From contig JBFLYD010000001.1 in assembly GCA_040756905.1 (NCBI GenBank), forward strand, positions 1 through 32,764: a stretch of DNA of 32,764 nucleotides. Direction: 5' to 3'. Under the pieces are notes generated by a model. The model was given only the letters and a program-made list of their open reading frames with translations. It searched no databases and was not told the DNA's origin. The position numbers and the translations under genes were made by a program. This document shows, piece by piece, positions 1-32,764 of this stretch; within the stretch, counting starts at the first letter, position 1; each line of letters starts with the position of its first letter. The stretch comes from Acidobacteriota bacterium (lineage in GTDB: Bacteria > Acidobacteriota > Aminicenantia > JBFLYD01).

Positions 1-125
1 ACTTTTTCAAATTCTGATTTCATCGAAAAAGTGGCCGGAATAAATCGGAATGGGTGGCCACTTTCAATCAGAATCAGTGGCCGGTTTGAATCGGAATCGA
101 TGGCCACTTTGGATCGGAATATACA
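1..125. mobile_element. IS21-like insertion sequence terminus, left
   Basis: Bases 2-125 are the exact reverse complement of 32641-32764. Inside are four tandem units of about 23-25 bp, each holding a TGGCC core followed by an AATCGGAAT-like core (AATCAGAAT in one). The inner edge ends in CA, so the element reads TG...CA, and several repeats near the terminus are typical of IS21-family ends. The transposase genes would lie outside the window. The IS end joins a TPR gene fragment directly. The family assignment rests on end structure only. Confidence 0.6.
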
Positions 126-3388: not shown

Positions 3389-4612
3389 TTTAAAAAAAGG
3401 AAAAAAAGAGTTTTAATTGTTTTATTGTTTTTAATAAGCTCTTTTCTTTGGAGCTTAACTAAGGAAGAGAGGATCAAGAATTTTGAAAAACTTTATAAAT
3501 CAGTAAAAGAGCAATTTCCTTTTTTTGAAATGAGAAATATCGAGTGGGATGAAATTTATAAAAAATATAGATACATTATCCAATCTTCTTTAGATTCAAT
3601 AGATGACGAAGAATATATCTCAATTTTGAGGGATATGTTAGCAGGATTAGATGATGGGCATGCAGATATTATTAAACCTCCTTTTAATTTGATTGGTATT
3701 GGAGCATTTATTACATTAAAAGAAAATAGAGTGATTGTAGATTATGTTGAAAAAGGTTCTCCAGCAGAGAATAGAGGATTGAAGAAAGGATATGAAATAA
3801 CAGGAGTAAATGGTTCTTCAGTATCCAATTACATTAACTCCCTTCCAATTTATTTCAAAAAACCGCAATGGAAACTTCGAGTTCTTTTCTTTCATGGGAA
3901 AGCAAATATATCTATTTCTCTTACTTTAAAAGACATGGATAATACAATTAAAACAATTGAGGTTAAAAGATTAATAAAAGAGAAGAAACCCGTTGAAAAT
4001 AAAATTATTTATAAGTTTTTAGATGATGAAATTGGTTACATAAGAATATCAGCATTTTCCGGGAAAAATATTATTAAAGAATTTGACGAGGCATTAAAAG
4101 ATTTATTTAGAAGCAAAGGTCTTATCATAGATGTCAGAGGTAATCCAGGAGGAAGTTCAGAAATTTCAGATTGGATAGTAGGAAGATTTATAGAATATAA
4201 GATTAAAATAGGTACTTCGGCTTATAAAATGCCAAAATATATTCCAAGTGAAGGATTCAAAAATGTATTTAATTATATTATTAAGCCAAGGGGAAAAACT
4301 TATAAAAAGCCAGTGGTTATTTTAATTGATTTTTGGTGTGCAAGTGCATGTGAACTTTTTACAATTTCCATGAGAGATTCAGGAAGGGCTATATTAGTTG
4401 GAAGGAAAACTTCCGGGATAATGGGGCTTCCTGGATTTATAAAACTTTCAGGAGGCATATTAGCTCGATTTTCAACAGGAGATTTTATCCGATTGAATGG
4501 AGAAAGTGTTGAAGGTCGAGGTATTACATCAGATATTCAAGTAGATAATGAAGATGAAGACATTGAAAAAGCTATTGAAATTTTGAAATTGAAGATTTCA
4601 AAGATAAAATAA
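3386..4612 (+). CDS. S41-family C-terminal-processing-like serine protease, exported
   Basis: The protein has about 408 residues if read from ATA at 3386, or 395 from TTG at 3425. The extra 13 residues supply the positively charged n-region of a signal peptide (KKRKKR, then VLIVLLFLISSFLW), so the longer form is preferred. Next come an N-terminal helical region and a PDZ-like segment (GSPAENRGLKKGYEITGVNG). The S41 core has GYIRISAFSG, the oxyanion-type motif DVRGNPGG, the nucleophile in CASACE (Ser about 320 in the long form) and the general-base Lys in GRKTSG (about 341). It therefore keeps the Ser-Lys pair of tail-specific proteases. It lies just before the CXXX peptide on the same strand, so it could process that peptide, but this is inference. 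The ATA could also be a mutated ATG. Confidence 0.85.
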   Translation: MFKKRKKRVLIVLLFLISSFLWSLTKEERIKNFEKLYKSVKEQFPFFEMRNIEWDEIYKKYRYIIQSSLDSIDDEEYISILRDMLAGLDDGHADIIKPPFNLIGIGAFITLKENRVIVDYVEKGSPAENRGLKKGYEITGVNGSSVSNYINSLPIYFKKPQWKLRVLFFHGKANISISLTLKDMDNTIKTIEVKRLIKEKKPVENKIIYKFLDDEIGYIRISAFSGKNIIKEFDEALKDLFRSKGLIIDVRGNPGGSSEISDWIVGRFIEYKIKIGTSAYKMPKYIPSEGFKNVFNYIIKPRGKTYKKPVVILIDFWCASACELFTISMRDSGRAILVGRKTSGIMGLPGFIKLSGGILARFSTGDFIRLNGESVEGRGITSDIQVDNEDEDIEKAIEILKLKISKIK

Positions 4613-4737: not shown

Positions 4738-4756
4738 AAAGGAGATAGAGATGTAG
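4738..4756 (+). promoter_or_regulatory. RBS and ATG followed at once by an amber stop
   Basis: AAAGGAG at 4738-4744 is spaced 6 bases from ATG at 4751, an ideal initiation site. The next codon is TAG (4754-4756), then TAC, then a second in-frame ATG at 4760 that opens the Cys-rich peptide. Translation of the peptide would need reinitiation at 4760 or reading through TAG. Confidence 0.6.
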
Positions 4757-4759
4757 TAC

Positions 4760-4924
4760 ATGATTTTGGGGAATGAAGGAGTCACTCCTAATTGTCCAGG
4801 AGACCCTGGAAGATGTGCAGATTACTGCTGGATCGACTGTCCTGAGGTTTGTTCTGTAGTGTGTGGTGTAGTATGCAACCCATATTGTGAATTATTATGC
4901 AGTCAACTCTGTGTGATTGACTGA
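4760..4924 (+). CDS. CXXX-repeat cysteine-rich peptide, RiPP-precursor-like
   Basis: The peptide has 54 residues from ATG at 4760, with ten cysteines. After C12, the cysteines fall at 19, 23, 27, 31, 35, 39, 43, 47 and 51, exactly every fourth residue. The stretch before them is Gly/Pro/Asn-rich (GNEGVTPNCPGDPGR). The TGA stop (4922-4924) sits exactly where the next Cys codon, number 55, would be. One inserted base there puts two more Cys (TGT 4933, TGC 4945) in phase and moves the stop to 4957-4959. Perfect period-four Cys recalls the CXXX-repeat peptides matured by radical SAM enzymes. No maturase is visible in this window. Neighbours are an exported protease upstream, and a TPR gene and an ABC exporter stub downstream. 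Metal binding is an alternative. The lesions suggest a recent pseudogene or unusual decoding. Confidence 0.65.
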   Translation: MILGNEGVTPNCPGDPGRCADYCWIDCPEVCSVVCGVVCNPYCELLCSQLCVID

Positions 4925-5089
4925 TAGGTGGATGTGACCAGTACTGCGAAGGGTTTTGAATAAGCATAATATGAAATTGAATAAAGGTAGAAAGCAATGA
5001 TGAGAACTTTTTAATCTATTTTAGTAGGCCATTGGGCTCATAATCAGCTTGGGAATATACTCTATAAACAGAAAAGATATTATGAGGCG

Positions 5090-5563
5090 GTGCAAGAATA
5101 TAGGAAAGCTATAGAAATAGATCGAGATTATCTTATTGGATATTACAATCTTGGTTCAGCCTATGATGCCTTGGAAGATAAAGAGAATGCAGAAAAGCAT
5201 TGGAGATTTGTAGCTGAACATGGAAAAGTTAAGAACAAAGGAAAGGAGGCTGAAGAGAGGGTAAAGGGCGAAAGGATGGAAATCCTCGTTTTTGTTAAGG
5301 AGACGCAACCATATTTCTATGCCCGTAAATACCTTGGATTCTTATATATAGATAAAGGGCTTAAAGAGAAAGCAATTAAAGAATTTGAAGAGGCATTAAA
5401 AGTCATCCCTTCTGATGCTGAAATCCACTATGAGCTTGGAAAAATTTATATGGGTTTAGAAAATAAGGAAAAAGCCATATATCATTTCGAAAGCGCTATT
5501 AAGAATGGAACTAAGAATGAACGGGAGGCAAAGGAGTTCTTAAAAGAACTTAGAAAAAAATGA
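5090..5563 (+). CDS. TPR-repeat protein, probably missing its N-terminus
   Basis: The protein has 157 residues from a GTG at 5090, with at least three TPR units (YLIGYYNLGSAYDALEDKENA, ARKYLGFLYIDKGLKEKA and AEIHYELGKIYMGLENKEKA). The frame is open further upstream to 5015, and those codons also encode TPR sequence (NQLGNILYKQKRYYEAVQEY). No usable start exists there before a TAA at 5012. It is therefore probably the remainder of a longer gene that lost its 5' end, or it starts internally. Its stop overlaps the ABC-transporter stub by ATGA (5560-5563), so the two were one transcription unit. Function is unknown beyond protein binding. Confidence 0.6.
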   Translation: MQEYRKAIEIDRDYLIGYYNLGSAYDALEDKENAEKHWRFVAEHGKVKNKGKEAEERVKGERMEILVFVKETQPYFYARKYLGFLYIDKGLKEKAIKEFEEALKVIPSDAEIHYELGKIYMGLENKEKAIYHFESAIKNGTKNEREAKEFLKELRKK

Positions 5564-5781
5564 ACAAGGATTCCAACCTCTTTAGGTTTATAAAATATTT
5601 CAAACCCTACACATCAAGAATAATTGAATCAGCCATATTGATGTTCTCAACCTCCCTTCTTGAGCTTCCTCTTCCCTTAATCACAATGTTCATTATCGAT
5701 GATGTTATTGTTGAGAAAAACTATGGGCTTTTGAATATCCTATGTTTTGCTCTTTTCGGTATCCTTAATTATATTGAATGA
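5560..5781 (+). pseudogene. N-terminal stub of an ABC exporter
   Basis: Seventy-three codons encode the start of an ABC-transporter transmembrane domain: FRFIKYFKPYT as the cytoplasmic lead-in, a first membrane helix with SLLELPLPLITMFIIDDVIV (a typical exporter TM1-loop pattern), then NILCFALFGILNYI. A full half-transporter has about 570-600 residues, so nearly all of it, including the ATPase, is absent. The frame stops at 5781, and 38 bases later the convergent DUF3108 gene ends, which suggests a deletion rather than a point mutation. It may have exported the Cys-rich peptide encoded 640 bp upstream. Confidence 0.65.
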
Positions 5782-5819
5782 ATATAGAATAGCTTCAAAA
5801 GGAAAAGAAGCGAAGATTC

Positions 5820-6608
5820 TCATTCATTAATTTTATTCCCTTCCTGATATTCAATCAGTTCAGCAACACTGTAGCCAATCGTGAAACTGCTTTTAAATCT
5901 TACAGGGATTCTTTTTTCATCTTCTGTTATCCAGATGAAGAGTTTTCCTTTGCTTGTCTGAAAGGACCCTCTGAGTCCAGACAAAATTTCGAGAACAAAA
6001 CAATCAAATTCGCCAAAAGGAGTTTTTATTGATTCTTTTTCTTTAACTCTGACTTTTACGATACTTTTTCTCTTTCTATCGAAAACAGGAATTTCATAAA
6101 AGGCGTCGATTTTTAAAGGCAATATGCGGAAATAGTAAAAACAGGAAAGAACATCCTGGATGCAGGGAAACCCAAGCTCATAAGTTAGGTCATTTTTTTC
6201 CAATCCTCTTTTAGTTATTTTATTCTGTTTGAAATAAATCTTAGAATTATCATAGTCAAACTCTGAAATCTCATCAGAAACCCATCTTCCCTCTCTCTGA
6301 TGTTTAATTGCTTTATGGGAACAAAAAGAGTGGAAATCCACAAAGGATTCGATATGGTCATCGACGAAAAAAAAGCTTGATATAATTCCAATGCTTTTTG
6401 CTTTTAAAACAATATGAAACATTTCTGGATTTGGATTTTTAGCCTTTTCCATGTAAAATTCTGCAATGCCAGCTTTTAAAAAAGTCCAACTAATTTCATA
6501 TTTCATTTTTTCGCCTGGTTGAAAAGGGAATTGAGAAAAAGCCCTGACGGTAAAGAACAGAATTATAAAGAATTTTAAAGATATGATTTTATGATAAGAA
6601 TCAACCAT
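5820..6608 (-). CDS. DUF3108 exported protein
   Basis: The protein has about 262 residues from the ATG at 6608; a frame up to 6638 is also open. The 6608 start gives a signal peptide (KIISLKFFIILFFTVRAFSQ). The mature protein begins FPFQPGEKMKYEISWTFLKA, the usual DUF3108 opening, and contains CIQDVLSCFYYFR, TPFGEFDCFVLE and a closing VRFKSSFTIGYSVAELIEY, all family-typical beta-sheet segments. DUF3108 proteins are envelope-associated and often encoded near LPS or cell-envelope genes; their biochemical role is not settled. The gene overlaps the methyltransferase-like gene upstream and ends the heptose operon. Confidence 0.75.
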   Translation of the reverse strand: MVDSYHKIISLKFFIILFFTVRAFSQFPFQPGEKMKYEISWTFLKAGIAEFYMEKAKNPNPEMFHIVLKAKSIGIISSFFFVDDHIESFVDFHSFCSHKAIKHQREGRWVSDEISEFDYDNSKIYFKQNKITKRGLEKNDLTYELGFPCIQDVLSCFYYFRILPLKIDAFYEIPVFDRKRKSIVKVRVKEKESIKTPFGEFDCFVLEILSGLRGSFQTSKGKLFIWITEDEKRIPVRFKSSFTIGYSVAELIEYQEGNKINE

Positions 6609-9751: not shown

Positions 9752-9823
9752 TGACCCGTGCTGGACTCGAACCAGCGACTCCCTGCTTAAAAGGCAGGTG
9801 CTCTCCCTCTGAGCTAACGGGCC
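9752..9823 (-). tRNA. tRNA-Lys (TTT), integration target
   Basis: This is a 72-nt cloverleaf. The acceptor stem is GGCCCGT with ACGGGTC (one G-U pair), the anticodon arm CCTGC-CTTTTAA-GCAGG gives TTT, and the T-arm is CTGG-TTCGAGT-CCAG. CCA is not encoded. Its 5' half through the anticodon loop (9784-9823) is repeated at 19812-19851, so the present 5' half came with the integrated element while the 3' half is original. The integrase stop codon lies inside it. Confidence 0.93.
9784..9823 (-). repeat. attachment site (att) inside tRNA-Lys, 40-bp core
   Basis: Forty bases are identical to 19812-19851, in the same orientation, covering tRNA-Lys from its first base to the anticodon loop. This is the left boundary of the integrated element. 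It also contains the last two sense codons and the TAG stop of the integrase. Confidence 0.88.
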
Positions 9824-10995
9824 GAATTATTATTAATAAAGGATTTCCTAAAGTCAATGTTTTCCAAAACTTCCAATTGTGGATAATTTGCGTCTATTTT
9901 TTCTTGAGTCTCTTCACTCATCACAGGAAGAATTGAATTAACTGTTTTTCTTAAGCCTTCCATAGTAGCATGGCTATATCTTGATGTCATTCTTATATCT
10001 GCATGTCCTAATATTTCCTTAAGAGATATTATATCACAATTTCTTTGAATAGTGTAGGTAGAAAAAGTATGCCTCAAATCGTGAAATCGAAATCCTATTA
10101 TTTTAGCTCTTCTGCATGCATTTTCAAACGACCTTCTTATTGAGTGCATCGGCTTACCGTTTCTTTCATCGATAAATACATACTCATTGATTCTTCTAAT
10201 GTTCTTTAAAGTTTCTAATAACATGGAATTCATTGGAATTCTTCTTATCTTACCGTTTTTTGAGTGAGTGATATGGATAAATCCTTCCTGGAAATTCACC
10301 TGTCCCCACCTAAGATAAAGAATCTCCCTTAGTCTCATTCCTGTATTTAGTGCAGTAATAATAATCGGTTTAAGATGGCCGTTTGATTCCTGGAGTAATT
10401 TTTTGATTTCCTCTGGAGTTAAGATTTTCTCTCTCGGTTCTTCTTTCAGAAACCTAATCCCTTTTACTGGATTTGAATCAGCTAATTCCCATTTAATAGC
10501 AAGGTTAAACATTCGCTTCAATAAGGCCAATTCTCGATTTATTGTTGCGTTAGAAGGAGTTTTTTTAATCTTTTTTACTGGCGAAATCTTAATTTCCTTT
10601 TTCCTTTCTATTTTGTATTGTTCTACTAAAAAGTTTGTTATTTGAGATAATTTAAATCCAGAAAAATAACCGCTTAGATGTTTAGCTAAATGGATATCGT
10701 TAGGCCAACTTTTTCTGTTAATCTTAGCCCATTCAAAATATTTCTCTACCATTTCCATAAAGGAGATTTTAACCTGTCTTGGCAATTTGTATCTTTGCTG
10801 ATAGATGTCTCCTTGTCTCATCTTCATGACCTTCTCTGCATCTGATTTTGATTCAAATCCACCCTCTCTCACCCGCCTTCCATTGAAATAATAAGCAATC
10901 CAAAACTTTTTGCCCCTTAAAAAAATTGAGCCAGTCCCGTAGGGACGTCTTGTTCTCCTTTTACCCATTTTCTCTGACTCATCGGTGAGATTCAT
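9814..10995 (-). CDS. int: Tyrosine recombinase, integrase of the element
   Basis: The integrase has 393 residues from ATG at 10995, chosen because GAGGA lies 8 bases upstream; an upstream TTG at 11019 is less likely. An N-terminal arm-binding domain (RPYGTGSIFLRGKKFWIAYY) is followed by a core-binding SAM-like domain at about 75-180 and the catalytic domain with all expected residues: R221 in TGMRLREI, K246, H305 and R308 in HDLRH, H331 in LGH, and the nucleophile Y340 in SRYSH. It should integrate the element into tRNA-Lys by recombination across the 40-bp core. The C-terminus ends S-A-R-stop, with A, R and TAG lying inside the tRNA. These last codons also carry a promoter-like pair. It follows the excisionase-like gene by about 100 bases. 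Confidence 0.92.
   Translation of the reverse strand: MNLTDESEKMGKRRTRRPYGTGSIFLRGKKFWIAYYFNGRRVREGGFESKSDAEKVMKMRQGDIYQQRYKLPRQVKISFMEMVEKYFEWAKINRKSWPNDIHLAKHLSGYFSGFKLSQITNFLVEQYKIERKKEIKISPVKKIKKTPSNATINRELALLKRMFNLAIKWELADSNPVKGIRFLKEEPREKILTPEEIKKLLQESNGHLKPIIITALNTGMRLREILYLRWGQVNFQEGFIHITHSKNGKIRRIPMNSMLLETLKNIRRINEYVFIDERNGKPMHSIRRSFENACRRAKIIGFRFHDLRHTFSTYTIQRNCDIISLKEILGHADIRMTSRYSHATMEGLRKTVNSILPVMSEETQEKIDANYPQLEVLENIDFRKSFINNNSAR
9829..9857 (-). promoter_or_regulatory. Replacement tRNA-Lys promoter inside the integrase coding sequence
   Basis: On the minus strand, TTGACT (9857-9852), 17 bases and AATAAT (9834-9829) end five bases before tRNA-Lys. The displaced host promoter at the other end begins with the same ten bases, TTGACTTTAG, with the same spacer length. 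The bases also encode the integrase residues IDFRKSFINNN. The element thus appears to bring its own tRNA promoter. Confidence 0.6.
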
Positions 10996-11096
10996 ATCAA
11001 ATTTCCTCAAAAATATCAACTACAATGCGATTAGAGAGGAGATTTAGGAGAAACCCTATATAAATCATTAACCCTGAATCTTGAAAAATCATAGCT

Positions 11097-11381
11097 TTAG
11101 TTATTTTTGATTCTTTCGAAGAATTCATCCAAATCCTCGTTCTTGGTTAATTTTTTTGCCTTTTTTGTTTTCTCTGGAATTGAATCTATCTCCAAATTAT
11201 ACTGAGTCCTTTTCTCCAACCATTCATCCAAAGCCTTTTTCCTGACCCTTAGAGGTGCTTTTCTTCCTTCTCCTAATTTACAAACAGGGATAGACCTTTT
11301 CCACGCCCATTTCTTTACAGTAGAAAGTGATAGGCTCAAATATTCGGCTGTCTCTTCCAGGGTAAGAATCTCTTTATTCAC
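11097..11381 (-). CDS. Excisionase-like helix-turn-helix protein
   Basis: This is a 94-residue protein from GTG at 11381, with GGGAG about ten bases upstream. Residues 3-55 are a MerR/excisionase winged-helix domain (LTLEETAEYLSLSLSTVKKWAW, then PVCKLGEGRKAPLRVRKKALDEWL). The lysine-rich tail has no known fold. Its position next to the integrase and its domain make a recombination directionality factor likely; a plain transcription regulator is the alternative. It overlaps the upstream XRE-type gene by eight bases, so it is translated from the long operon. Confidence 0.75.
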   Translation of the reverse strand: MNKEILTLEETAEYLSLSLSTVKKWAWKRSIPVCKLGEGRKAPLRVRKKALDEWLEKRTQYNLEIDSIPEKTKKAKKLTKNEDLDEFFERIKNN

Positions 11382-11925
11382 CTAATATCTCCCTAATCTT
11401 CTCAAATATTTCCTGCTCCCATATCAAAATACCAAGTTCTTCTAACTCTTTCCTCAAATCATTGGCTCTAATATAGTCTTTGCCAATCCTTGATTTAACT
11501 ATTTTATTAAGATAACTTGCTTTCAATTCCCTTATTTTTTCTCTGACTAAGTCTTTTTCAGTGGTATAGGTAAACACTTTTTCAGGCTCTTTGTTTACTT
11601 TTTCTAAAATACTGTTTCCTTTATTTTTTAATTTATCTTTGATTGCGTTCACTATCCTTTTAGATAAAGGCTTTTTACCGTGTAAACACTGAGAGAGGTA
11701 AGAAGGAGAATATTCAATCTCTCTTGCTAATTTTCTTAAACCCCCACAAGAGGCAATTGCCTTTTCCAGTAAATCAAGGGGATTTAGTGAAGATTCTTTA
11801 ATGGGAACTTTATAAACATCTAAGTAAGCTTCGTTTTGCTTCTCATCAAATCTCTTCTGAATAAATTCTTCGAATAAGTGCTTTAAGGAATCAAAAGCTC
11901 TATCGTAATCTCTATCGTAATTCAT
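11374..11925 (-). CDS. XRE-like helix-turn-helix protein
   Basis: This is a 183-residue protein with a central Cro/C1-type HTH at about 49-92 (GGLRKLAREIEYSPSYLSQCLHGKKPLSKRIVNAI), where the Cro-like recognition helix SPSYLSQCLHG is clear. The N-terminal 45 residues are charged and helical, and the C-terminal 80 residues (KDLVREKIRELKASYLNKIV, later ELEELGILIW) look helical and unknown. It overlaps both neighbours by 8-14 bases in the replication-recombination operon. It could regulate that operon or the excision decision. Confidence 0.65.
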   Translation of the reverse strand: MNYDRDYDRAFDSLKHLFEEFIQKRFDEKQNEAYLDVYKVPIKESSLNPLDLLEKAIASCGGLRKLAREIEYSPSYLSQCLHGKKPLSKRIVNAIKDKLKNKGNSILEKVNKEPEKVFTYTTEKDLVREKIRELKASYLNKIVKSRIGKDYIRANDLRKELEELGILIWEQEIFEKIREILGE

Positions 11926-12493
11926 AATTTTCCTTTCCCTCTCTCCAGATATTTTTCATGTATTCTAAACTATTAACCAAAGTTTCCACGATAAGTTTTG
12001 CCTGTTCTTTTGTCTTTAGAAACCCTATTGTCATAACAATGTTTCCCTTTCGAAGAGTGATAGGATAGACACTTTCGGAGGCTTTATCACAAAATATCTC
12101 AATCCCTTTGATTTCTGTTGAAAATCTTTTTTTTATTTTTAAGGAGTCAAAAAAAGTCTCAGACCTCAATTTTTTGCCTTCGGGAAGCCTTGCCAGTATT
12201 GAATCATAGCTATCGACATTTTCAAAATTGCCAAAATTCGATATTATATCCCTGCTTGATTCCTGTCGATAAGATAAATCCTTATCTGTATTGGATTTTC
12301 TGTGTTTTTGGACTTTTCGGTATATCGACGCTAAATCAGGCCTATTTTTGGCCTGTTTTCCTCTCTTATTTTTTATCCATTTTTTCTGATAGTCATGCTT
12401 ATAATTTTTTCTACAATCCTCTGAACAAAAATTTTCTTTTCCTGAAAGTCCCTTTTCAATTACTTTACCGCAGTTCTTACAAAGCTTTCTCAT
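11912..12493 (-). CDS. Zinc-ribbon protein of unknown function
   Basis: The 193-residue protein has an N-terminal zinc site with C5, C8, C23 and C27 (CKNCGKVIEKGLSGKENFCS, EDCRKNYK). This treble-clef-like ribbon occurs in small phage DNA-binding proteins. A basic stretch follows (KKWIKNKRGKQAKNRP). The C-terminal part contains TLRKGNIVMTIGFLKTKEQA and looks alpha/beta. The domain suggests nucleic-acid binding. It overlaps the next gene upstream by 17 bases and the XRE gene downstream by 14, so it is part of the replication operon. No specific family is recognised. Confidence 0.6.
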   Translation of the reverse strand: MRKLCKNCGKVIEKGLSGKENFCSEDCRKNYKHDYQKKWIKNKRGKQAKNRPDLASIYRKVQKHRKSNTDKDLSYRQESSRDIISNFGNFENVDSYDSILARLPEGKKLRSETFFDSLKIKKRFSTEIKGIEIFCDKASESVYPITLRKGNIVMTIGFLKTKEQAKLIVETLVNSLEYMKNIWREGKENYELR

Positions 12494-12710
12494 TTCTGAT
12501 TACTCCGATTGATTCTCTCTTTTTAGCTTCTCTGTTTATTCTTTTTAATTCATTTCCAATATAATCGTTTATCTCTTTCAACCTTATTTCTAACTCTTCA
12601 AAGAGTTTTTTTCTTTCGTTTGAATCTTTTTCTTTTCTTATTCTTGATGTAGCAAAATTAAGATAGATATTCAGCAAACTTATTAAATCCAGGTCTTTCT
12701 CAATACTCAT
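12477..12710 (-). CDS. Small hypothetical helical protein
   Basis: The 77-residue protein is strongly charged and predicted all-helical (RKEKDSNERKKLFEELEIRL). No family is recognised. It overlaps the helicase gene by 11 bases and the zinc-ribbon gene by 17, so it is translated within the operon. A helicase partner or loader role is possible from position only. Confidence 0.55.
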   Translation of the reverse strand: MSIEKDLDLISLLNIYLNFATSRIRKEKDSNERKKLFEELEIRLKEINDYIGNELKRINREAKKRESIGVIRNEKAL

Positions 12711-13917
12711 TTGTTATCTCCAAAATTCTCCCTGTTTGTTTATCAAAATGACATTCCATAAGCTTGGTATCTCCTCTTTTGTTTTTGAGAAGTTTTACAA
12801 TCATCTTATTTTTAAATTTCTCTCCGCTTTCTTCATCAATCTCTGGTCTCCAGAGGCCTATAACAAAGTCCGATTTCTCCTCAACTGCTCCGGAGTCTCG
12901 AGCCATGTTTAACCTCACCGGAATACTGCCGTCTTCAGCCTCTCTCGATAATTGATGAACTAAGATAATCAAAACATTTTCCTCTTTAGCTAATTTCTTG
13001 ATGTCGGTTATAAGACTTGTTGTTTTCAAATACAAAGAGCTAAAGAATTCCGTTTTGATGAGGTCAAGGAAATCGATGAAAATTATCCTTAAGTTTTTGT
13101 TTTTGATTATCCTTCTGATTTCTTCAATTGAGTATATGTTTGAGAAAATCTCTACATTTTTGAAAGTATTTAAAAATTCTTCCTGATATTCTAAATTTGA
13201 AGAAACCGCTAAAACTTGCTCAGCATTGAGGTTAAAATATATCTGCCAGAGCCTTTCTGTGATAGATTCTTTAGGCATTTCCAGTGAGAAGAATCCTATT
13301 TTTTCGGTATGAGTTGAAACTATGTTCTTGAGGATGTTTAAAGCTAAGAATGTTTTTCCTACTGTAGTTCTTGCCATGATAAGAAGGATTTCGCCAAACC
13401 TAAATCCTCTTGTTGCTCTATCTATTGTTGGTAATCCCAAAGTTATTCCTGGGCTTTTTGATGTTGTAAGGCCAATAAATTCTTTTAGACAAAACTCTAT
13501 AGAGGAATCCTCTGTTTCTGTTTCTGGAATATCAGCTTTAGTTAGAATCTTTTTGAATCTTTCTAAATCAAATTTTGGTTCTTCCGATAATGCTTTCAAC
13601 TCTTTAAAAACAGATTCTTTGACTTTTGTTTCCTGAAGTTCCCTTATAAAACTTTTTAATTCACTCTCAGCATTTGAAAAGTTTATATAGCTGGTATTCT
13701 TCAAGATAGAATTAAAATATTCTATTGGAATCTCATCTTTCAGGTTCTCTATTATTTGCAGCAAGCTGAATGTTTTTCCTTCTTCTTTGTGGAGTTTTTT
13801 CATCTCCCTGTATATAAGCTTAGCTGGTTCAGAAAAAAGCTCTTCTGGGATATCCTCTCTGAATAAAGAATCGTCATTTAGCATTGTTCCGATTATTGCT
13901 TGCTCTAATGAAATCAT
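12700..13917 (-). CDS. DnaB-like replicative helicase
   Basis: The protein has 405 residues, slightly shorter than bacterial DnaB. The N-terminal DnaB domain (SLEQAIIGTMLNDDSLFREDI) precedes a RecA-fold ATPase: GLPTIDRATRGFRFGEILLI, Walker A ARTTVGKT at 182-189, SLEMPKESITERL, Walker B LRIIFIDFLDLI with D282, and a switch region VHQLSREAEDG followed by DSGAVEEKSDFVIGLWRPE. It should unwind DNA at the element's fork. Its ATGA start overlaps the stop of the O-like initiator, the usual initiator-helicase order of lambdoid phages. No separate DnaC/P-type loader is recognised. This is strong evidence that the element replicates on its own at some stage. Confidence 0.88.
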   Translation of the reverse strand: MISLEQAIIGTMLNDDSLFREDIPEELFSEPAKLIYREMKKLHKEEGKTFSLLQIIENLKDEIPIEYFNSILKNTSYINFSNAESELKSFIRELQETKVKESVFKELKALSEEPKFDLERFKKILTKADIPETETEDSSIEFCLKEFIGLTTSKSPGITLGLPTIDRATRGFRFGEILLIMARTTVGKTFLALNILKNIVSTHTEKIGFFSLEMPKESITERLWQIYFNLNAEQVLAVSSNLEYQEEFLNTFKNVEIFSNIYSIEEIRRIIKNKNLRIIFIDFLDLIKTEFFSSLYLKTTSLITDIKKLAKEENVLIILVHQLSREAEDGSIPVRLNMARDSGAVEEKSDFVIGLWRPEIDEESGEKFKNKMIVKLLKNKRGDTKLMECHFDKQTGRILEITNEY

Positions 13918-14771
13918 CTTAACCCCGCTTTTTTTAGTTCTTCCATTGTTAAATCATAAGCCGATGGTTTCTTGTTTCCAGTTTCTGATTTTGAATAGTT
14001 TTCAAATGGTTTATTTTCTGTTAAGAATTTCTCAAGCCCTCTCTGAAGAAACTCCTTTAAAGTCCATTTGTAAGTCCAGAAATACTTATCATCAGTTAGG
14101 ATGGTATAGTAATTGTCAATTGCTTCTTTTATCTCTTCGGGAGAGTATTTTTTAAGCCGAGCATTAATTACACTCTGAAGGTTAGCTGTTAACTCTCGGT
14201 GTTTGATTATTCCCTTAGAGTTCCAATAAGAGAAGATATCTTGTATAGGGGAAGTTTTTTCTTCTTTTTGAGAATTCGGACTATATATATTTTCTTTTGT
14301 AATAGTTTCTTTTGTGGGTGCAAGAATTTGTATATCTTTTTCAAGTTCTTGCACTACCCCTATTTTTCTTGCACTACCCATTTTCTTCTTGGTAGCATAA
14401 TAATTCCTTCTATTTTCAAGGATTTTCGTATATTGAGGTGTTTTTTCTTGCACTACCCATTGGTCATAATCCTTATTAAATTTAATGGTGCTTATTTCGT
14501 TAGAATTTCTATTTCTTTTTCGATATATAATAATCATTCTTTTGGCCTCGAGATTCTGGAGAGCATAAATTATCATCCTTCTGCTTTTCCCTGTCATTTT
14601 TTGTAATTGAGAAATACTAATTTTGTCTTCTCTTTTATTCCAACCATATGTTTTACGGAGAATTGCCCATATAATTTGCCCTTCAGTAAATCCCGGCATT
14701 GCTTTTGCCAGTGCCTCTACAATTTCATTAGCTATCTTTGTGTAGCCATTTTCAACTTGTGGATTTGCCAT
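13914..14771 (-). CDS. Phage O-like replication initiator
   Basis: The 285-residue protein has a start confirmed by GGAGG about seven bases upstream. Residues 1-100 match the N-terminal domain of phage lambda O-type initiators (NPQVENGYTKIANEIVEALA, then a winged helix around TEGQIIWAILRKTYGWNKREDKIS). The C-terminal half has a helical segment (YSPEEIKEAIDNYYTIL, TYKWTLKEFLQRGLEKFL) seen in phage replication proteins that contact the helicase. In lambda, O binds iterons that lie within its own gene. Candidate repeats here are in the gap at 16155-16664. It overlaps the helicase gene by four bases and the 70-aa gene by 20. Confidence 0.82.
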   Translation of the reverse strand: MANPQVENGYTKIANEIVEALAKAMPGFTEGQIIWAILRKTYGWNKREDKISISQLQKMTGKSRRMIIYALQNLEAKRMIIIYRKRNRNSNEISTIKFNKDYDQWVVQEKTPQYTKILENRRNYYATKKKMGSARKIGVVQELEKDIQILAPTKETITKENIYSPNSQKEEKTSPIQDIFSYWNSKGIIKHRELTANLQSVINARLKKYSPEEIKEAIDNYYTILTDDKYFWTYKWTLKEFLQRGLEKFLTENKPFENYSKSETGNKKPSAYDLTMEELKKAGLR

Positions 14772-14964
14772 TGCTTTCCCTCCTTTTTTCTAAGTCTTCA
14801 ATTAAGGAATTAATAACTTCTCCGATGGGAATGAAATCAGACTTTTTCCTATGGGGTTTTAATTTTCTGTTCTTTTTTGCTAAATTACTTTTGTTAAAGG
14901 AAGTTCTACAATATTTATTAAGGAAGTCCTCCAGATTGACTGTTTTTACTTTTTCAATATTCAT
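14752..14964 (-). CDS. Small basic protein, unknown
   Basis: The 70-residue Lys/Asn-rich protein (LAKKNRKLKPHRKKS) is preceded by a good Shine-Dalgarno, AGGAG, about ten bases from the ATG. No family is recognised. It lies 11 bases after the DUF5659-like gene and overlaps the initiator gene by 20, so translation is coupled. The basic character suggests DNA or RNA contact, which is inference. Confidence 0.6.
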   Translation of the reverse strand: MNIEKVKTVNLEDFLNKYCRTSFNKSNLAKKNRKLKPHRKKSDFIPIGEVINSLIEDLEKRRESNGKSTS

Positions 14965-14975
14965 ACAATCATCTC

Positions 14976-15215
14976 CTAAAAATTTCGAAATATTAACTTC
15001 TTCAGATTATCCAAAGCCTGAAGATAATCTCCGATTTTAACCTCTTGATTATTTAGAAAATCTTGGATTAATTTCTCGCATTCCCCATCATCCTGAAAGA
15101 CGAAAAACACTTTTCCATTTTCATGTCTGGAATTCAAAAGCTTCACTCCCCTTGCTTTAAGGAATGCCCCAAGATATAAGTCTGTTGTGCAATAATTTTT
15201 ATTTTTCATTTTCAC
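14976..15215 (-). CDS. DUF5659-like small protein
   Basis: The 79-residue protein has the pattern of the DUF5659 family: TTDLYLGAFLKARGVKL at the start, KVFFVFQDDGECEKLIQDFLNN in the middle, and a final helix DYLQALDNLKKLIF. Such proteins occur in phages and conjugative elements and have no known activity. It is the first gene of the minus-strand replication operon, about 40 bases downstream of the repressor gene. Confidence 0.65.
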   Translation of the reverse strand: MKMKNKNYCTTDLYLGAFLKARGVKLLNSRHENGKVFFVFQDDGECEKLIQDFLNNQEVKIGDYLQALDNLKKLIFRNF

Positions 15216-15255
15216 TTAAAGAAATTTTTTCAATGTCAATAGCCATGAGTTAACC

Positions 15256-15459
15256 TCACCTATTTGATTCAACTGGAAAAACCTCATCAACTTGCACCTT
15301 TAATGCCCTTGCCAGCTTCTCCCTGACTTCCATCCCCGGATTAATATAGCCAAGTTCAATCATATCAACCCAACACAAAGAAACCCCAGACTCAGCAGAG
15401 AGGCGACCCATAGCCCATCCTCTCTCTTTCCTTAATTTTCTTAAATTGTTTCTATGCAT
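15256..15459 (-). CDS. XRE-family repressor-like regulator
   Basis: The 67-residue Cro/C1-type HTH protein reads LRKLRKERGWAMGRLSAESGVSLCWVDMIELGYINPG, then a helix and PVES. The frame is open to an ATG at 15498, but AGGAGG lies four bases before the internal ATG at 15459, which also fits the usual start of such regulators. It is divergent from the 199-codon plus-strand gene at 15555 and upstream of the replication operon. That is the place of a lysogeny-type switch, so it is likely the main repressor of the element. Confidence 0.75.
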   Translation of the reverse strand: MHRNNLRKLRKERGWAMGRLSAESGVSLCWVDMIELGYINPGMEVREKLARALKVQVDEVFPVESNR

Positions 15460-15554
15460 TTTGCCTCCTGAAGCCTTGATTTTTTCGGCTTCATACATTA
15501 GAATAAACTATTGTGATTGCTTTCAATATAGCTCATTTTTGGTGACAGACAGAA

Positions 15555-16154
15555 ATGATTAGAAAAGTTGATGCTGATGTAAATGTTGAATTTCTAATCC
15601 TTATGCAAAATTTTAGAAAAGATAAAGGCGGTAAAGAAGTTTTTGATTTCAAGCGAGGATATAGTTTTATAAAAAGATTGCTTCCTATCAGGGGTGACTC
15701 ATTGGAACTTTCATCACTTTGTTATAAAACGAAAAAATCTCTTAAAAGAAAATATTTCTTCATTCATCGCATTAAAATTCTTTTTTTGTGGAAATGTGTT
15801 AAAGAGATGAGATTTTTTGCTCGATGGTTAGTAAATAAAAAAAATAAACTTGATATTCCTGAAGGGATTTTTGTCCCTAAAAGGCATTTTGAAAGTATTA
15901 CGAAAAAGTTTCTACTTCTTATCTCTATTTTAAAATATTTGATCAAAAAAAATATTCCATTAAAGTCTTATTCAAGGGAAATACAGAGGAAATTCCACAT
16001 ATCAAAGAAAGACCTCTTAGAGTTCTATAATTGGCTTCTTTTACTCGAAACAAAAGGAGAGTTATTGAAGCAATTTTATGTTGAATTATTAGCTCGATAC
16101 AATGTTTTTATTAAAGAAAAAGGAATTGATAAATTACAATCAATCAAATTATAA
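15555..16154 (+). CDS. Hypothetical protein, only plus-strand gene of the element
   Basis: The 199-residue protein is rich in Lys, Phe, Leu and Ile and probably all-helical (KKFLLLISILKYLIKKNI, LLEFYNWLLLLETKGELL). No known domain is recognised. It has no signal peptide, and no convincing membrane helix despite its hydrophobic runs. It starts with ATG and a weak GACAG ribosome site, and faces away from the repressor, so both starts share a 95-bp region. The length of the open frame in AT-rich DNA supports a real gene. It could be a regulator, a cargo gene or a phage-interference factor; nothing in the sequence decides. Confidence 0.5.
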   Translation: MIRKVDADVNVEFLILMQNFRKDKGGKEVFDFKRGYSFIKRLLPIRGDSLELSSLCYKTKKSLKRKYFFIHRIKILFLWKCVKEMRFFARWLVNKKNKLDIPEGIFVPKRHFESITKKFLLLISILKYLIKKNIPLKSYSREIQRKFHISKKDLLEFYNWLLLLETKGELLKQFYVELLARYNVFIKEKGIDKLQSIKL

Positions 16155-16664
16155 ACTTCCCCCTTTTCTTTAAAATCTCTTAATAAAGACCTGATTTTTC
16201 TTATATAACGGCAAATGTTAGGATATTGAATTTCGCAGGGAAGGCTACCCCCCCCTAACCAGGTCTCGGCTGAAGGCTAATCTATCCTACCATATCCTAT
16301 CCTTTCAGCTAATCTCTTTTAATTTCTTGAAAGAATATCCTTAAAAGGAAATCTATTAAAATCAATAATTTAGTGTTCACGCAATCCACTCTTTATGGGA
16401 ACACAATTTAAAAAAATCTCAATCAGGTAGGAATGAATTAGGATTTTAAAAATTGTAATATATCGACATAGTCAAAAAACGTAATATATCCGAATAGCTT
16501 TTTACTCCACCTAATATTAAATTATACATAGTGTCACATGGTATTATCATATAATACTTATATATCTTCTTACAATAAAGGTTTTCTAATGTTTTTAGAT
16601 ATTATATTAGATTAAAAAATTACCTCGATTTTGTAGGTCAATTCTATATAATTTTTAAGCTTTT
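16155..16664. other. Repeat-rich non-coding region, candidate origin or ncRNA locus
   Basis: This 510-bp stretch has no plausible gene. TATCCT-type motifs lie at 16283, 16293 and 16298, with an inverted copy TAGGATA at 16219-16225. GCTAATCT occurs at 16276 and 16308. GGCTGAAGG (16269-16277) can pair with CCTTTCAGCT (16301-16310). An eight-C run lies near 16249. GTAATATATC occurs at 16456 and 16482, 26 bases apart. It sits between the replication/repressor half and the accessory half, which suits a replication origin with iterons or a small RNA, but neither is proven. Confidence 0.4.
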
Positions 16665-17060
16665 TTATCTCCCAAATAAACCTAAACCTCTAAGAGGGAA
16701 TAAAGAGAATCTATAATAATCTTTTAAAGCAGACCGTGGAAAGAATTGAGTAGTTGGTCTCTGAGCACTATAAATAGGTGTTATATTTTTCTCCTGCAAT
16801 TCTTTGAGTAAATTATCCAGAAAAGAAAAATCCATAGTCATTCCTTCGGGATAACCCCAATTTCCCATTCTTTTGTATTGTTGTAATAAAGCCTGCATCA
16901 TAATTGGGTCTAATTTCTCTATAAATGGACTTCTATAAATATATTTTCTTCTTTGTGCTTCTTCCCATTTTCTTTGTTTTTTCGCTTCTATAGAGCCAAA
17001 TAAACCAGCAAGTAATGATGAGGCTGACTTTATTAAAGCTTCAGTAGTTTCAGGTTCCAT
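16665..17060 (-). CDS. Hypothetical protein with phage-structural-like N-terminus
   Basis: The 131-residue protein has a strong Shine-Dalgarno, GGGAGGT, before the ATG at 17060. The N-terminus LIKSASSLLAGLFGSIEAKKQRKWEEAQRRK pairs a small-residue amphipathic helix with a charged coil, a pattern I associate with minor virion or DNA-injection proteins of small phages; this likeness is weak. The rest is proline- and aromatic-rich (SAQRPTTQFFPRSALKDYYRF). It has its own promoter with an inverted repeat at the transcript start. Function is unknown. Confidence 0.55.
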   Translation of the reverse strand: MEPETTEALIKSASSLLAGLFGSIEAKKQRKWEEAQRRKYIYRSPFIEKLDPIMMQALLQQYKRMGNWGYPEGMTMDFSFLDNLLKELQEKNITPIYSAQRPTTQFFPRSALKDYYRFSLFPLRGLGLFGR

Positions 17061-17100
17061 TTTAATACCTCCCTAAATATCTTTTTATTTTGCATCACCC

Positions 17101-17123
17101 ACACGGATACTTATCTTCCGTGT
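17101..17123 (-). promoter_or_regulatory. Inverted repeat, operator or 5' hairpin
   Basis: ACACGGA (17101-17107) and TCCGTGT (17117-17123) form a perfect 7-bp inverted repeat with a 9-base loop. It lies just downstream of the -10 box of the 131-aa gene promoter, so it would overlap the transcript start. No T-run follows it on the minus strand, which argues against a terminator for the lipoprotein gene. Confidence 0.45.
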
Positions 17124-17131
17124 TCTATAAA

Positions 17132-17160
17132 ATATTACCAGATTAAAGAATATTTGTCAA
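17132..17160 (-). promoter_or_regulatory. Sigma70-type promoter of the 131-aa gene
   Basis: On the minus strand, a perfect TTGACA (17160-17155), 17 bases and TAATAT (17137-17132) precede the 131-aa gene, whose ATG is at 17060. This gives a leader of about 65 bases that contains the 7-bp inverted repeat. Confidence 0.5.
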
Positions 17161-17194
17161 TTTCACAGTTTAGCATTGCTTTTTAAAATATATC

Positions 17195-17998
17195 TTATTT
17201 TTTTCTTTCGCAAGATGGCAGTCTATAATCTATATGGTTGATGAATTGCTTTAATAGGAGAATAGTATCAAATGGAATACCAGTATCAAACGATCCTACT
17301 GCACTTGCTACTAACAATGGCTTTACTACGAGCCGAGAATCATAATAATTTTTAATAAAAACTCGAAGATCATCATATGTTTTAATATTTTTCCCTCTAT
17401 TTGTTTCTTTTAAATAAATGGTGTAATCCTTGTAAGTGAGTAATTCCCCCTCTTCCGTGAGATAGAAACGACCGGCAAAATAAATTGTAACCATAGGAAA
17501 TACATAGGCTTTATAATAGCCTGGTCGATATACAGGGACAAGCTTTAACTCACTTGGAAGATTTAGAGAACCAACTTTCCAACCAAACTCGTCTTTAATG
17601 GTTATTTTTTTACTTGGGGTAAAATCTGGAAGCCAAGTTGTAGAAGGGGGAATATATACATCTGAGGTGGCAACTGAAAAATATATACCTGCAATGAAAT
17701 CTGCTGAAGGGATAGACTTTGTATATGTATAATCGTGATTTACTAAAATGGTTTTAACTTCTTCTAATAATTCTTTTTCAATAAAATAGTCCCTGCTTAT
17801 TCCCTTGTTATGCGGAAAAACTGTAAAAAATTGACATTCCGACATAAGCTCTTCATCACTATAAACTTCTATTTCAGGTGCTGGGATATCTATTTTTTGG
17901 GGTATTGGTTGTATTAAAGCTCCCTCCCGCTCCAAGAGTTCACTACAGGCGGGACAAAGAAACAAAACACAAATTGGGATTAAGGTTATCTTTTTCAT
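17195..17998 (-). CDS. Lipoprotein carried by the element
   Basis: Read from ATG at 17998, the protein begins MKKITLIPICVLFLCPACSE, a lipoprotein signal with a lipobox-like C-P-A-C and Cys about 18 as the lipidated residue. A TTG start at 18043 would put an unlikely basic extension before it. The mature part (about 250 residues) includes VKTILVNHDYTYTKSIPSADF and alternating beta segments (VATSDVYI, VFPMVTIYFAGRFYL), loosely like the DUF4136 family. It is probably attached to the outer membrane. No replication or integration role is apparent, so it is likely cargo, perhaps altering the surface or superinfection. It ends about 70 bases before the promoter of the 131-aa gene. Confidence 0.7.
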   Translation of the reverse strand: MKKITLIPICVLFLCPACSELLEREGALIQPIPQKIDIPAPEIEVYSDEELMSECQFFTVFPHNKGISRDYFIEKELLEEVKTILVNHDYTYTKSIPSADFIAGIYFSVATSDVYIPPSTTWLPDFTPSKKITIKDEFGWKVGSLNLPSELKLVPVYRPGYYKAYVFPMVTIYFAGRFYLTEEGELLTYKDYTIYLKETNRGKNIKTYDDLRVFIKNYYDSRLVVKPLLVASAVGSFDTGIPFDTILLLKQFINHIDYRLPSCERKK

Positions 17999-18067
17999 TT
18001 TATTTTCTTTATTGATTTTAATTTTAGAAATCTTTTTTGTCAATTGTAAATTGTTTAATCAAATTAT

Positions 18068-18976
18068 CTACCACCTGACAAATTTCTCTGCCCCCTGAGA
18101 TATCCTCTTTAGGTTATGAGCATATATAAGCGTGGTATTTATATTCTGATGTCTCAGCATGTCTTTAACCTGCACAATATCCGCCCCATTCATCAAGGCC
18201 AAGGTTGCTGAGGAATGCCTGAAACTGTAAGCAGATATTTTATTTGTTTTTATTCCAGCCTCTTTCAATCTGTTAAATATTATTTTTCTTATCCCGGAGA
18301 TTGTCAATCTTTTTCCTAAGCTTCTGTCTGAATGAGAAATAAAAAGGGAGTCAGAAGGTTTATAATTCTTTCTCATATTAAGATACTCCATAATAGGCTT
18401 ATAAGATTCTTCAACCAAGATAACAAAGTCATCTTTAGAGTCTGAGCCTTTACCTTGCACTTTTAAAATCCATTCTCCTGAATCGAAGATAATATCCTCA
18501 ATATTAGCTCTGGATACTTCGCAAGTTCTTAATCCAGTCCTAAGCATTAGGTTAATAATGGCAAAATCTCTTTTACCTATGATTGTAGACTTATCAACTG
18601 AGGAAAGAAGCTTGACTATCTGAGACTGTATTAGTGGAGATTTAAAATAACCTTTAGGCTTTTTCACTCCTTTAATTCCCTTGGTTATATCAGGGTAAAG
18701 CCTTTGAGATTCTAAAAAAGTAAAAAGCCTTCTTAAAGCTGTTAAATAACTGGAGATTGTAAAGGCAGATAGTTTTTTCTCTTTTAGGTGATTCTTAAAA
18801 GAAATAATATCTTCTTTTCCAGGCTTATCGATTTGATTCTCATATAGCCAATTAGAGAATACCTTTAGAGCTTTTGAATAAGTCTCTTTAGTTGATTCTC
18901 TCAAATCCATTCTATTGAGGATTTCTTCAAGGGAAAGAGAGGATAAATCGCCGAATTTAATTTGAATTATGCTCAT
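18068..18976 (-). CDS. Second tyrosine recombinase, XerC/D-like
   Basis: The 302-residue protein has an N-terminal SAM-like core-binding domain (STKETYSKALKVFSNWL) and a catalytic domain with R150 (RTGLRTCEVSR), K176, R253 in YSFRHSS, H276 (MLRH) and the nucleophile Y285 (TTLIYAH). The first His of the HxxR box is replaced by Tyr250, a change seen in some active family members. Its size and lack of an arm-binding domain resemble Xer recombinases. It lies at the end opposite the integrase. Its ATG overlaps the stop of a small HTH gene, so the two are coupled. It may resolve multimers, help excision or invert DNA. Confidence 0.87.
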   Translation of the reverse strand: MSIIQIKFGDLSSLSLEEILNRMDLRESTKETYSKALKVFSNWLYENQIDKPGKEDIISFKNHLKEKKLSAFTISSYLTALRRLFTFLESQRLYPDITKGIKGVKKPKGYFKSPLIQSQIVKLLSSVDKSTIIGKRDFAIINLMLRTGLRTCEVSRANIEDIIFDSGEWILKVQGKGSDSKDDFVILVEESYKPIMEYLNMRKNYKPSDSLFISHSDRSLGKRLTISGIRKIIFNRLKEAGIKTNKISAYSFRHSSATLALMNGADIVQVKDMLRHQNINTTLIYAHNLKRISQGAEKFVRW

Positions 18977-19889: not shown

Positions 19890-20128
19890 TTCTATGGTCG
19901 TGTCACTTAAATATCTTTCTTTATTCTTTTGTGACACAACACTTTCCCTCTGGGAAAATACCTTCCCCATACCCCTTCAATGTGCTTTATGAGAAATTGC
20001 TTGTTTGTAAAATTATATATGGAACAGCACGCTATGGTCTTCTTATTAGGGAAATTATTCTTTTTAAGTAGTCTGAGTTAACTATAAATTTTAGAATTTA
20101 AAATGAGTAAGACCGTTCACATTAAGAC

Positions 20129-29606: not shown

Positions 29607-31358
29607 CTACCACCAAGGAAGCCCAGAAACTAATTTATCGAACTCTGTCTTTACATTTAGAAATCTCTCCAATGAGCCTTCAAAAAGACCATGCTTTAAA
29701 GGTAACCAATTCTTACCTGCCTGTGTGACCTCTAATTCAATTTCTTTAATAATCCACTTTTCAGGGTAACGCCTCCCCCTCCATCCAAAACACCCTATTG
29801 GTCCCCAAACATCGCCTATCTGCTTCTGACGCAAATCAGCATGAACTAAGGCAAGTAAATATTCAAATCGGTCGAAGCATTTTTTGTACTGGGTATCATC
29901 TGATAAAGATTCTTTAAAAGGCTCTCGTAACTTTTCTTCGAGTAGATCACTAATTGGTGTATAACGTCTTTCCATACCGGGTAACTGTTGTGCAACACTC
30001 TTATCCATAACTGCATAGGGATATAAAGCAAGGCCAAGGGGCTGATCTTCTATTCCCTCTTTAACTTTGACTTTGGTAAGCAAAACTGCAAATGTACCAT
30101 ATTTTTCAGCTGCAATAGAGGCAATCCCTCCTCCATAAAGGAGAAGAAGCGCAGGAAATAATCTCAATTCGAGCCATATATTTAATCCAGCCCTCTCTCC
30201 AGGTGGATTCGCGATTCGTTCAAGGCTTTTCACCCACAGGTCTTCATGTGTCTTTTCTCCCCAGTAGCAACCAGTGATCATGAGATCCCGAAGAATTTCG
30301 GTTAGAGCGTAATAGCGGTGAATACGTTTTGTCAGTTCTATTGTGCTGAATGGCACACCTTGCACTGGAAAATGCTCAATGGTTAACCCTGCATAAACTC
30401 TTTCTGTTTCCTCCATCATCAGATCATGCAGGCGAATCTTATAATGGTCGTCAACGATGTACTTCTTTAAAGTGGCTACAGCAACTTTTGATGAGAGAGG
30501 ATGTGGCCTCGAAAGCTCCTCTAATGCAAAGACCTTTTCAGCTATTTCACGAAAGAATGAATCAGCGTCCCGAATAGAAATAGTTTGTACATGCCTTAGT
30601 TTGATGAGTTTTTGCATCTGTTTTGTTGGTTTGCCTCTCATTGCCCAATATGTGGTAAACCTGTGAGTCTGGCAACGCTCAATTGCTGCTCGTAATGCTG
30701 TATCCCATTCAGCAGACCATCCACAGATTATAAGGCCAAAATCATCGAAAATTTGGTCCAATAAACGATTAATGCCTTTGTCGTATTTTGCAAGTTCATC
30801 AGGTGTATTTCTAATCCGGGTGTCGAGATAATCGCCATGGACTTTAATTATGGTACACTTTGTATGCGTAATTGGTAAAGCCCCAATGGCAGCGTCAGGA
30901 GTACTGATGACCGTTGGTACAATACCTACCTCCTCTATGGCTTCCTCTATTAAACGATCAAAATTAGTTGTAACAATAACCCGGATATATCCCTTTACTA
31001 CTAGTTCAGCTATCGCCTTGTGCGCTTCAGTTGGTATTTTTAGATGTTGCTCCCTTTCTTCTTCAGTGGGCTCAAAGTAACTCCTTAGAAGCTGACTGCG
31101 TTCTGCTTGTGACTTTGCAACTATATTAAGCAACTTGTTATAGTTTGGTGCTTCACCGAATGTAGCTTCGTACCAGGCAGCGGGATCAGGCTCACAATTC
31201 TCACCTTTGAGATGTGCCACTTTACGGATGAGATCTAATACCACCTCCCAACCTGTTGGAATACCAGCAGACCGCGACACTCCAGAGCCAATGAGTAATG
31301 CATACACCCCTTTATTAGAGTGCATAGAAAATGCTAACGAAATGATAGGTTCAATCAT
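29607..31358 (-). CDS. SIR2-domain protein, putative NAD-consuming defence effector
   Basis: The 583-residue protein has an N-terminal SIR2-like Rossmann domain at about 1-290. LLIGSGVSRSAGIPTGWE at 21-38 is the NAD-binding loop, VTTNFDRLIEEA at 128-139 and KVHGDYLD at 171-178 the catalytic His/Asp region, and LIICGWSAEWD at 208-218 closes the pocket. These are the marks of SIR2_2-type proteins, many of which drain NAD during phage attack. The C-terminal 290 residues (HYKIRLHDLMMEETERVYAG, LFPALLLLYGGGIASIAA) are unknown and may sense infection. The gene seems more GC-rich than the HEPN gene. A two-gene unit with the HEPN gene is possible but unproven. Confidence 0.82.
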   Translation of the reverse strand: MIEPIISLAFSMHSNKGVYALLIGSGVSRSAGIPTGWEVVLDLIRKVAHLKGENCEPDPAAWYEATFGEAPNYNKLLNIVAKSQAERSQLLRSYFEPTEEEREQHLKIPTEAHKAIAELVVKGYIRVIVTTNFDRLIEEAIEEVGIVPTVISTPDAAIGALPITHTKCTIIKVHGDYLDTRIRNTPDELAKYDKGINRLLDQIFDDFGLIICGWSAEWDTALRAAIERCQTHRFTTYWAMRGKPTKQMQKLIKLRHVQTISIRDADSFFREIAEKVFALEELSRPHPLSSKVAVATLKKYIVDDHYKIRLHDLMMEETERVYAGLTIEHFPVQGVPFSTIELTKRIHRYYALTEILRDLMITGCYWGEKTHEDLWVKSLERIANPPGERAGLNIWLELRLFPALLLLYGGGIASIAAEKYGTFAVLLTKVKVKEGIEDQPLGLALYPYAVMDKSVAQQLPGMERRYTPISDLLEEKLREPFKESLSDDTQYKKCFDRFEYLLALVHADLRQKQIGDVWGPIGCFGWRGRRYPEKWIIKEIELEVTQAGKNWLPLKHGLFEGSLERFLNVKTEFDKLVSGLPWW

Positions 31359-32640: not shown

Positions 32641-32764
32641 TGTATATTCCGATCCAAAGTGGCCATCGATTCCGATTCAAACCGGCCACTGATTCTGATT
32701 GAAAGTGGCCACCCATTCCGATTTATTCCGGCCACTTTTTCGATGAAATCAGAATTTGAAAAAG
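32641..32764. mobile_element. IS21-like insertion sequence terminus, right
   Basis: This is an exact inverted copy of 2-125. The element begins TGTATATTCC at 32641 and runs outward. The same end of the IS therefore faces inward at both edges of the window. Between the SH3 gene and this terminus (32550-32640) only an upstream region with a ribosome site is seen. Confidence 0.6.

Follow-up and report, generated by a model that had tools for sequence, protein, structure and literature searches.

A probable radical SAM RiPP cluster in decay, with an intact sister cluster in the same Aminicenantia genome

Among the systems that have been named, the CXXX-repeat RiPPs (maturase TIGR04115; peptides TIGR04117 and TIGR04118) share with the locus described here the placing of a cysteine at every fourth residue. 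The ranthipeptide maturases PapB and SCIFF (CteB) are SPASM radical SAM enzymes that make cysteine thioethers, and PapB acts on CX3D motifs, where it forms a bond between Cys and Asp (PMC9413430). The maturases of Clo7bot (TIGR04334), TIGR04463 and CefB (NF038107, Cys-every-fifth) are those closest to the enzyme on which much of the argument below turns, and the likeness extends to the short-leader Cys-rich precursor that adjoins it and to its ABC exporter. A search of the literature found no work on Clo7bot, on the NCBIfam accessions concerned or on RiPPs of Aminicenantes.

Here we describe a locus in the genome of an Acidobacteriota bacterium of the class Aminicenantia (assembly GCA_040756905.1). 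The window, by which we mean the whole stretch of DNA that was analysed, comprises positions 1 to 32,764 of contig JBFLYD010000001.1 (contig C1 below), 32,764 nucleotides in all. We consider it probable that the locus is what decay has left of a gene cluster that once specified a radical-SAM-modified, Cys-rich RiPP, and that its sister is the intact cluster which this genome carries on contig C7. The features in and beside it are as follows.

3425-4612, + strand: S41 peptidase, apparently intact, upstream of the peptide; membership of the cluster is unsupported
4740-4744, + strand: AGGAG ribosome-binding site, 6 bases 5' of ATG 4751 and 15 bases 5' of ATG 4760
4751-4756, + strand: likely ancestral start, ATG 4751, then amber TAG 4754-4756 (from the sequence, the AGGAG spacing and a weak leader match to the class)
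4760-4924, + strand: putative Cys-rich precursor remnant, an open frame from ATG 4760 to TGA 4922, 54 aa, ten Cys
4922-4959, + strand: frameshifted tail, with TGA at the tenth Cys position, TGT 4933 and TGC 4945 one base off phase, and an end at TGA 4957-4959
4997-5563, + strand: TPR protein remnant with TAA 5012-5014; homology to residues 441-616 of the 618-aa C7 TPR protein (37% identity, E 1e-31)
5560-5848, + strand: ABC exporter remnant; 5560-5766 matches C7 4186-4392 (88%) and 5767-5848 matches C7 5850-5931 (93%)

The initial annotation had drawn attention to nine cysteine codons at exact 12-base spacing, and this pattern is borne out. Nine TGY codons occupy 4814-4912 on the + strand as CX3 repeats, a pattern found once in the window against none expected from 100 dinucleotide shuffles, and runs of five or six TGY codons at this spacing have no second match in the 2,564,525-base genome (controls, 0). 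In 200,000 permutations of the 54-aa peptide's own residues the run of nine was never reached, the longest run being seven. An extra Cys seven residues upstream brings the open frame to ten (spacing 7,4,4,4,4,4,4,4,4), and profile searches with the window peptide found no protein-family match.

Both ends of the peptide are disturbed, much as had been proposed: the best start, ATG 4751, is followed at once by TAG, and beyond the ninth codon a TGA stands at the tenth spaced position with two further Cys codons one base out of phase. ATG 4751 is well placed for the AGGAG and ATG 4760 poorly placed; the ribosome site leads into ATG-TAG, and the open frame starts from ATG 4760 only. The description of the peptide as interrupted by an amber codon therefore needs qualification, as the TAG is present but precedes the Cys run, and from ATG 4760 all nine codons can be read without meeting a stop. 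At the other end, the loss of one base within the tenth Cys codon would explain both TGA 4922-4924 and the one-base offset of the two Cys codons that follow.

Unusual decoding of these stops had been put forward as well. The TGA sits exactly at a Cys position, as would be expected were it read as selenocysteine, and the TAG might likewise be read as an amino acid. We give this reading next to no credence. A TAG (4925-4927) lies directly behind the TGA, no stable hairpin was found 3' of TGA 4922 (z 0.93), a profile search returned no SelB match over cut-off in a genome that is 97.8% complete, and no tRNA-Sec over cut-off was found in the genome, where the two that came closest are a tRNA-Arg and a tRNA-Ser. 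TAG and TGA, moreover, serve as the ordinary stops of genes here. Separately, a 359-aa frame (L103:1971-3050) is similar to the SelB model over its C-terminal half (26 bits) but lacks the GTPase part.

The case for a RiPP cluster rests on the cluster on contig C7, in which a radical SAM/SPASM maturase, a Cys-rich peptide, a TPR protein and an ABC exporter follow one another in this order, the maturase adjoining the precursor.

C7 388-1818: radical SAM/SPASM enzyme, 476 aa
C7 1806-2018: Cys-rich peptide, 70 aa, 12 Cys, beginning with CX3C repeats
C7 2320-4176: TPR protein, 618 aa
C7 4186-5913: ABC exporter, 575 aa

In the window the order is Cys-rich peptide, TPR, ABC, with all three genes damaged, and no radical SAM domain (PF04055) was found anywhere on contig C1, so that no maturase adjoins the peptide there. 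The TPR fragment aligns solely with the end of its C7 counterpart, the first ~440 residues (the first two thirds) being gone, and between TAA 5012 and GTG 5090 there is no ATG, GTG or TTG, yet the TPR homology begins at about 5036. Where a radical SAM Cys-rich RiPP cluster would have its exporter, the window has a remnant with an internal deletion: about 1,457 bases that lie between the two matching segments on C7 are missing. Used as a search query, the 73-aa ABC fragment (5560-5778) retrieved the intact C7 exporter with 94% identical residues.

Over the first 69 ABC codons, 20 of the 24 differences between window and C7 are synonymous (dN 0.025, dS 0.65, dN/dS 0.04). As far as so short a stretch can tell, the low ratio implies that most of the divergence arose under selection and that the deletion is probably young, which suggests a recent loss of the exporter at the window locus. 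The ABC fragments of the two loci are nearly identical and the TPR fragments share 37% identity, and parts of the cluster may thus differ in history; the closeness of the ABC part to C7 is likely to stem from its recent duplication or from gene conversion.

Since the genome is a draft of 69 contigs, and errors that drop one base are frequent, the gene could be intact in the organism, with the stop and the frameshift introduced by sequencing or assembly. This is unlikely, as base-calling cannot yield the ABC deletion or the TPR truncation and neither small lesion lies within a homopolymer run. Nor does a chimaera of contig C7 account for the ABC remnant, given the 6-12% by which the two differ.

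A second alternative accepts the lesions and holds that a stripped-down, non-autonomous locus still works, the 54-aa, ten-Cys peptide being (re)started at ATG 4760 and the C7 machinery then modifying and exporting it in trans; one maturase would then serve two very different substrates. The frame from ATG 4760 retains ten Cys, nine of them exactly spaced, and at C7 the genome does have an intact maturase and exporter. We nevertheless regard this as doubtful, if with a small chance of being right, given that ATG 4760 sits 15 bases from the ribosome site, that the frameshift removes two or three Cys positions, that the adjoining genes are all damaged, and that the window peptide has no core alignable with the C7 peptide and a leader unlike it.

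How such clusters are equipped elsewhere could be judged from 141 genomes searched with the C7 maturase, which gave 19 strong matches in 10 genomes. Many maturases of the C7 type are adjoined by short Cys-rich peptides with strong ribosome sites, whose leaders take the form M-x-[FWY]-[ILM]-[IVLM]-x-P (for example in G113, G110, G115, G046 and, within the present genome, on contig C61). Across the class, ten to a dozen further Cys-rich peptides with short leaders adjoin maturases of the C7 kind, and in genome G113 radical SAM gene, Cys-rich peptide and ABC gene stand in the same order. From ATG 4751 the window leader would read M-stop-Y-M-I-L-G. Of 517 ATGs preceded by a ribosome site, about 18 do as well on the leader profile, ~10 of these being training peptides, and the compatibility of the window leader with the leader form of the class is accordingly a weak one.

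Another type of cluster found in the class (G075, G107, G112, G115) has precursors in which a double-glycine leader precedes five to seven CX3 cysteines, with radical SAM maturases nearest to TIGR04115 and PapB. In a third type, represented by G055, several CX3-repeat peptides adjoin a maturase whose TIGR04115 score, 534.8 bits, exceeds the cut-off of 350. The peptides next to this last maturase carry twin-arginine-like leaders (L115:1979-3088 and upstream; L043, L044). Precursors of the CX3 type thus adjoin radical SAM genes in the class, and peptides with cysteines recurring every four residues are in a natural setting beside radical SAM enzymes there.

This bears on a further alternative, that of an unmodified Cys-rich peptide which binds metal or forms disulfides without any radical SAM chemistry. 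In its favour, contig C1 has no maturase and the peptide matches no family. Exact CX3 spacing, however, is a hallmark of radical SAM targets (the TIGR04115/04117/04118 kinds), the TPR and ABC genes beside it correspond to those that accompany the C7 maturase, and the CX3-repeat peptides of the class adjoin maturases, all of which makes an unmodified peptide very improbable. The original choice between a RiPP and a metal-binding peptide, freshly broken, can accordingly be narrowed: with the C7 cluster and the class CX3 precursors in view it was most likely a radical SAM RiPP precursor, recently broken, and unmodified metal binding is disfavoured.

Two other sets of repeat matches were set aside. 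CHSA-repeat matches, tried as RiPP precursors in many genomes of the class, proved to be C-terminal tails of a long membrane-like protein (L022-L031 and other loci) that occurs in many class genomes and also in the phylum (G145, G200), and other genomes also have TGT/TGC repeats of low complexity, which are unrelated.

Measured against the named families, the C7 maturase scores 379.6 bits with Clo7bot (cut-off 600), 353.6 bits with TIGR04463 (cut-off 525) and 262.8 bits with CefB (cut-off 600); being below all three, it is a relative and not a member of these families, and other maturases of the class likewise fall below the three cut-offs. The peptides also differ, matching none of the NCBIfam peptide models, and the window locus is set apart by being broken and without a maturase. 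With respect to the CXXX-repeat RiPPs, the window peptide reaches 6.5 bits with TIGR04118 (E 8.1; cut-off 35), and the best TIGR04115 match of the genome is the C7 maturase itself, at 67.4 bits against a cut-off of 350. With the PapB model this enzyme scores 140 bits (cut-off 340), and the window peptide lacks the CX3D pattern. The solved structure nearest to it by sequence is 5wgg/5why (E 1.5e-13), which we take to be that of the SCIFF maturase CteB. To call the peptide one of an undescribed, lineage-specific kind was hence too strong: the maturases are near, if outside, Clo7bot, TIGR04463 and CefB, and one class member passes the TIGR04115 cut-off. We read the decayed cluster as belonging to a kind already known.

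A model for the decayed RiPP cluster can be drawn from its intact sister and from the related families. In the intact form, the leader would bind the peptide to the SPASM radical SAM enzyme, as families of this sort lead one to expect, and the enzyme would then cross-link the Cys residues of the peptide, to judge from C7 and related clusters most likely as thioethers. The modified peptide would be released from its leader and the product exported by the ABC transporter, with the TPR protein presumably made together with maturase, peptide and exporter. We infer that the window Cys peptide was once the substrate of a C7-type maturase. Decay would then have left the window locus without a maturase, with a stop behind the best-placed start, a frameshift in the tenth spaced Cys codon, a TPR gene minus its first two thirds and an ABC gene minus its middle. 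Nothing functional would be made there now, the locus being probably silent or yielding a useless fragment.

Against a decayed sister of C7 stand the absence of an alignable core between the two peptides, the weak leader match, the lack of a homologue of the peptide elsewhere, the unequal divergence of the ABC and TPR parts and the 54-aa frame from ATG 4760 that is still open. If our reading is right, the window has caught a radical SAM RiPP cluster in mid-decay while its sister in the genome is still intact, and it draws attention to little-described Cys-rich RiPP clusters of the class, the maturases of which reach the cut-off of no named family; for the laboratory, the intact clusters would be of more interest than the broken one. 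Besides C7, the genome has at least three more radical SAM clusters with ABC exporters, on contigs C61, C20 and C49 (radical SAM/ABC cluster loci of the genome: L070:388-5913; L075:3200-10909; L076:904-6001; L077:7250-12458). By eye, two of the additional clusters include beta-propeller-like proteins and the one on C61 a pair of M16-like peptidases, and C61 and C20 have short Cys-containing candidate precursors.

The surroundings of S41 relatives, examined in three genomes, held neither a Cys-rich peptide nor a maturase nearby, and the link with S41 peptidases that the initial annotation had envisaged finds no support. A homologue of the window peptide in a related genome, which it had also anticipated, was searched for and not found: neither the S41 peptidase nor the peptide led to an orthologous locus in GTDB and viral contigs, where the family amounts to one genome, and phylum-wide pattern searches gave Cys-repeat matches but no copy of the window locus among the matches listed. 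It is for want of such a homologue that the RiPP reading leans on the C7 sister cluster and not on an orthologue. A 17-residue peptide match in a viral contig (L112) was taken for chance.

Elsewhere on the contig, window positions 1-125 and 32641-32764 carry one 125-base repeat, made up of 23-base units, in opposite orientations. Contig C7 ends in an identical sequence, and the repeat is probably the terminus of a repeated mobile element that breaks the assembly. A dispersed repeat of ~180 bases at 19897-20034 is similar to C7 7052-7235, and its translation is also found on contigs C20 and C43. Positions 9814-18976 form a phage-like block with two integrases, a DnaB-type helicase and a replication protein O. 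A match over cut-off to the acidobacterial VWA protein TIGR03436 was also recorded, and 29607-31358 encodes a 583-aa protein with a SIR2-like domain that is possibly a defence gene.
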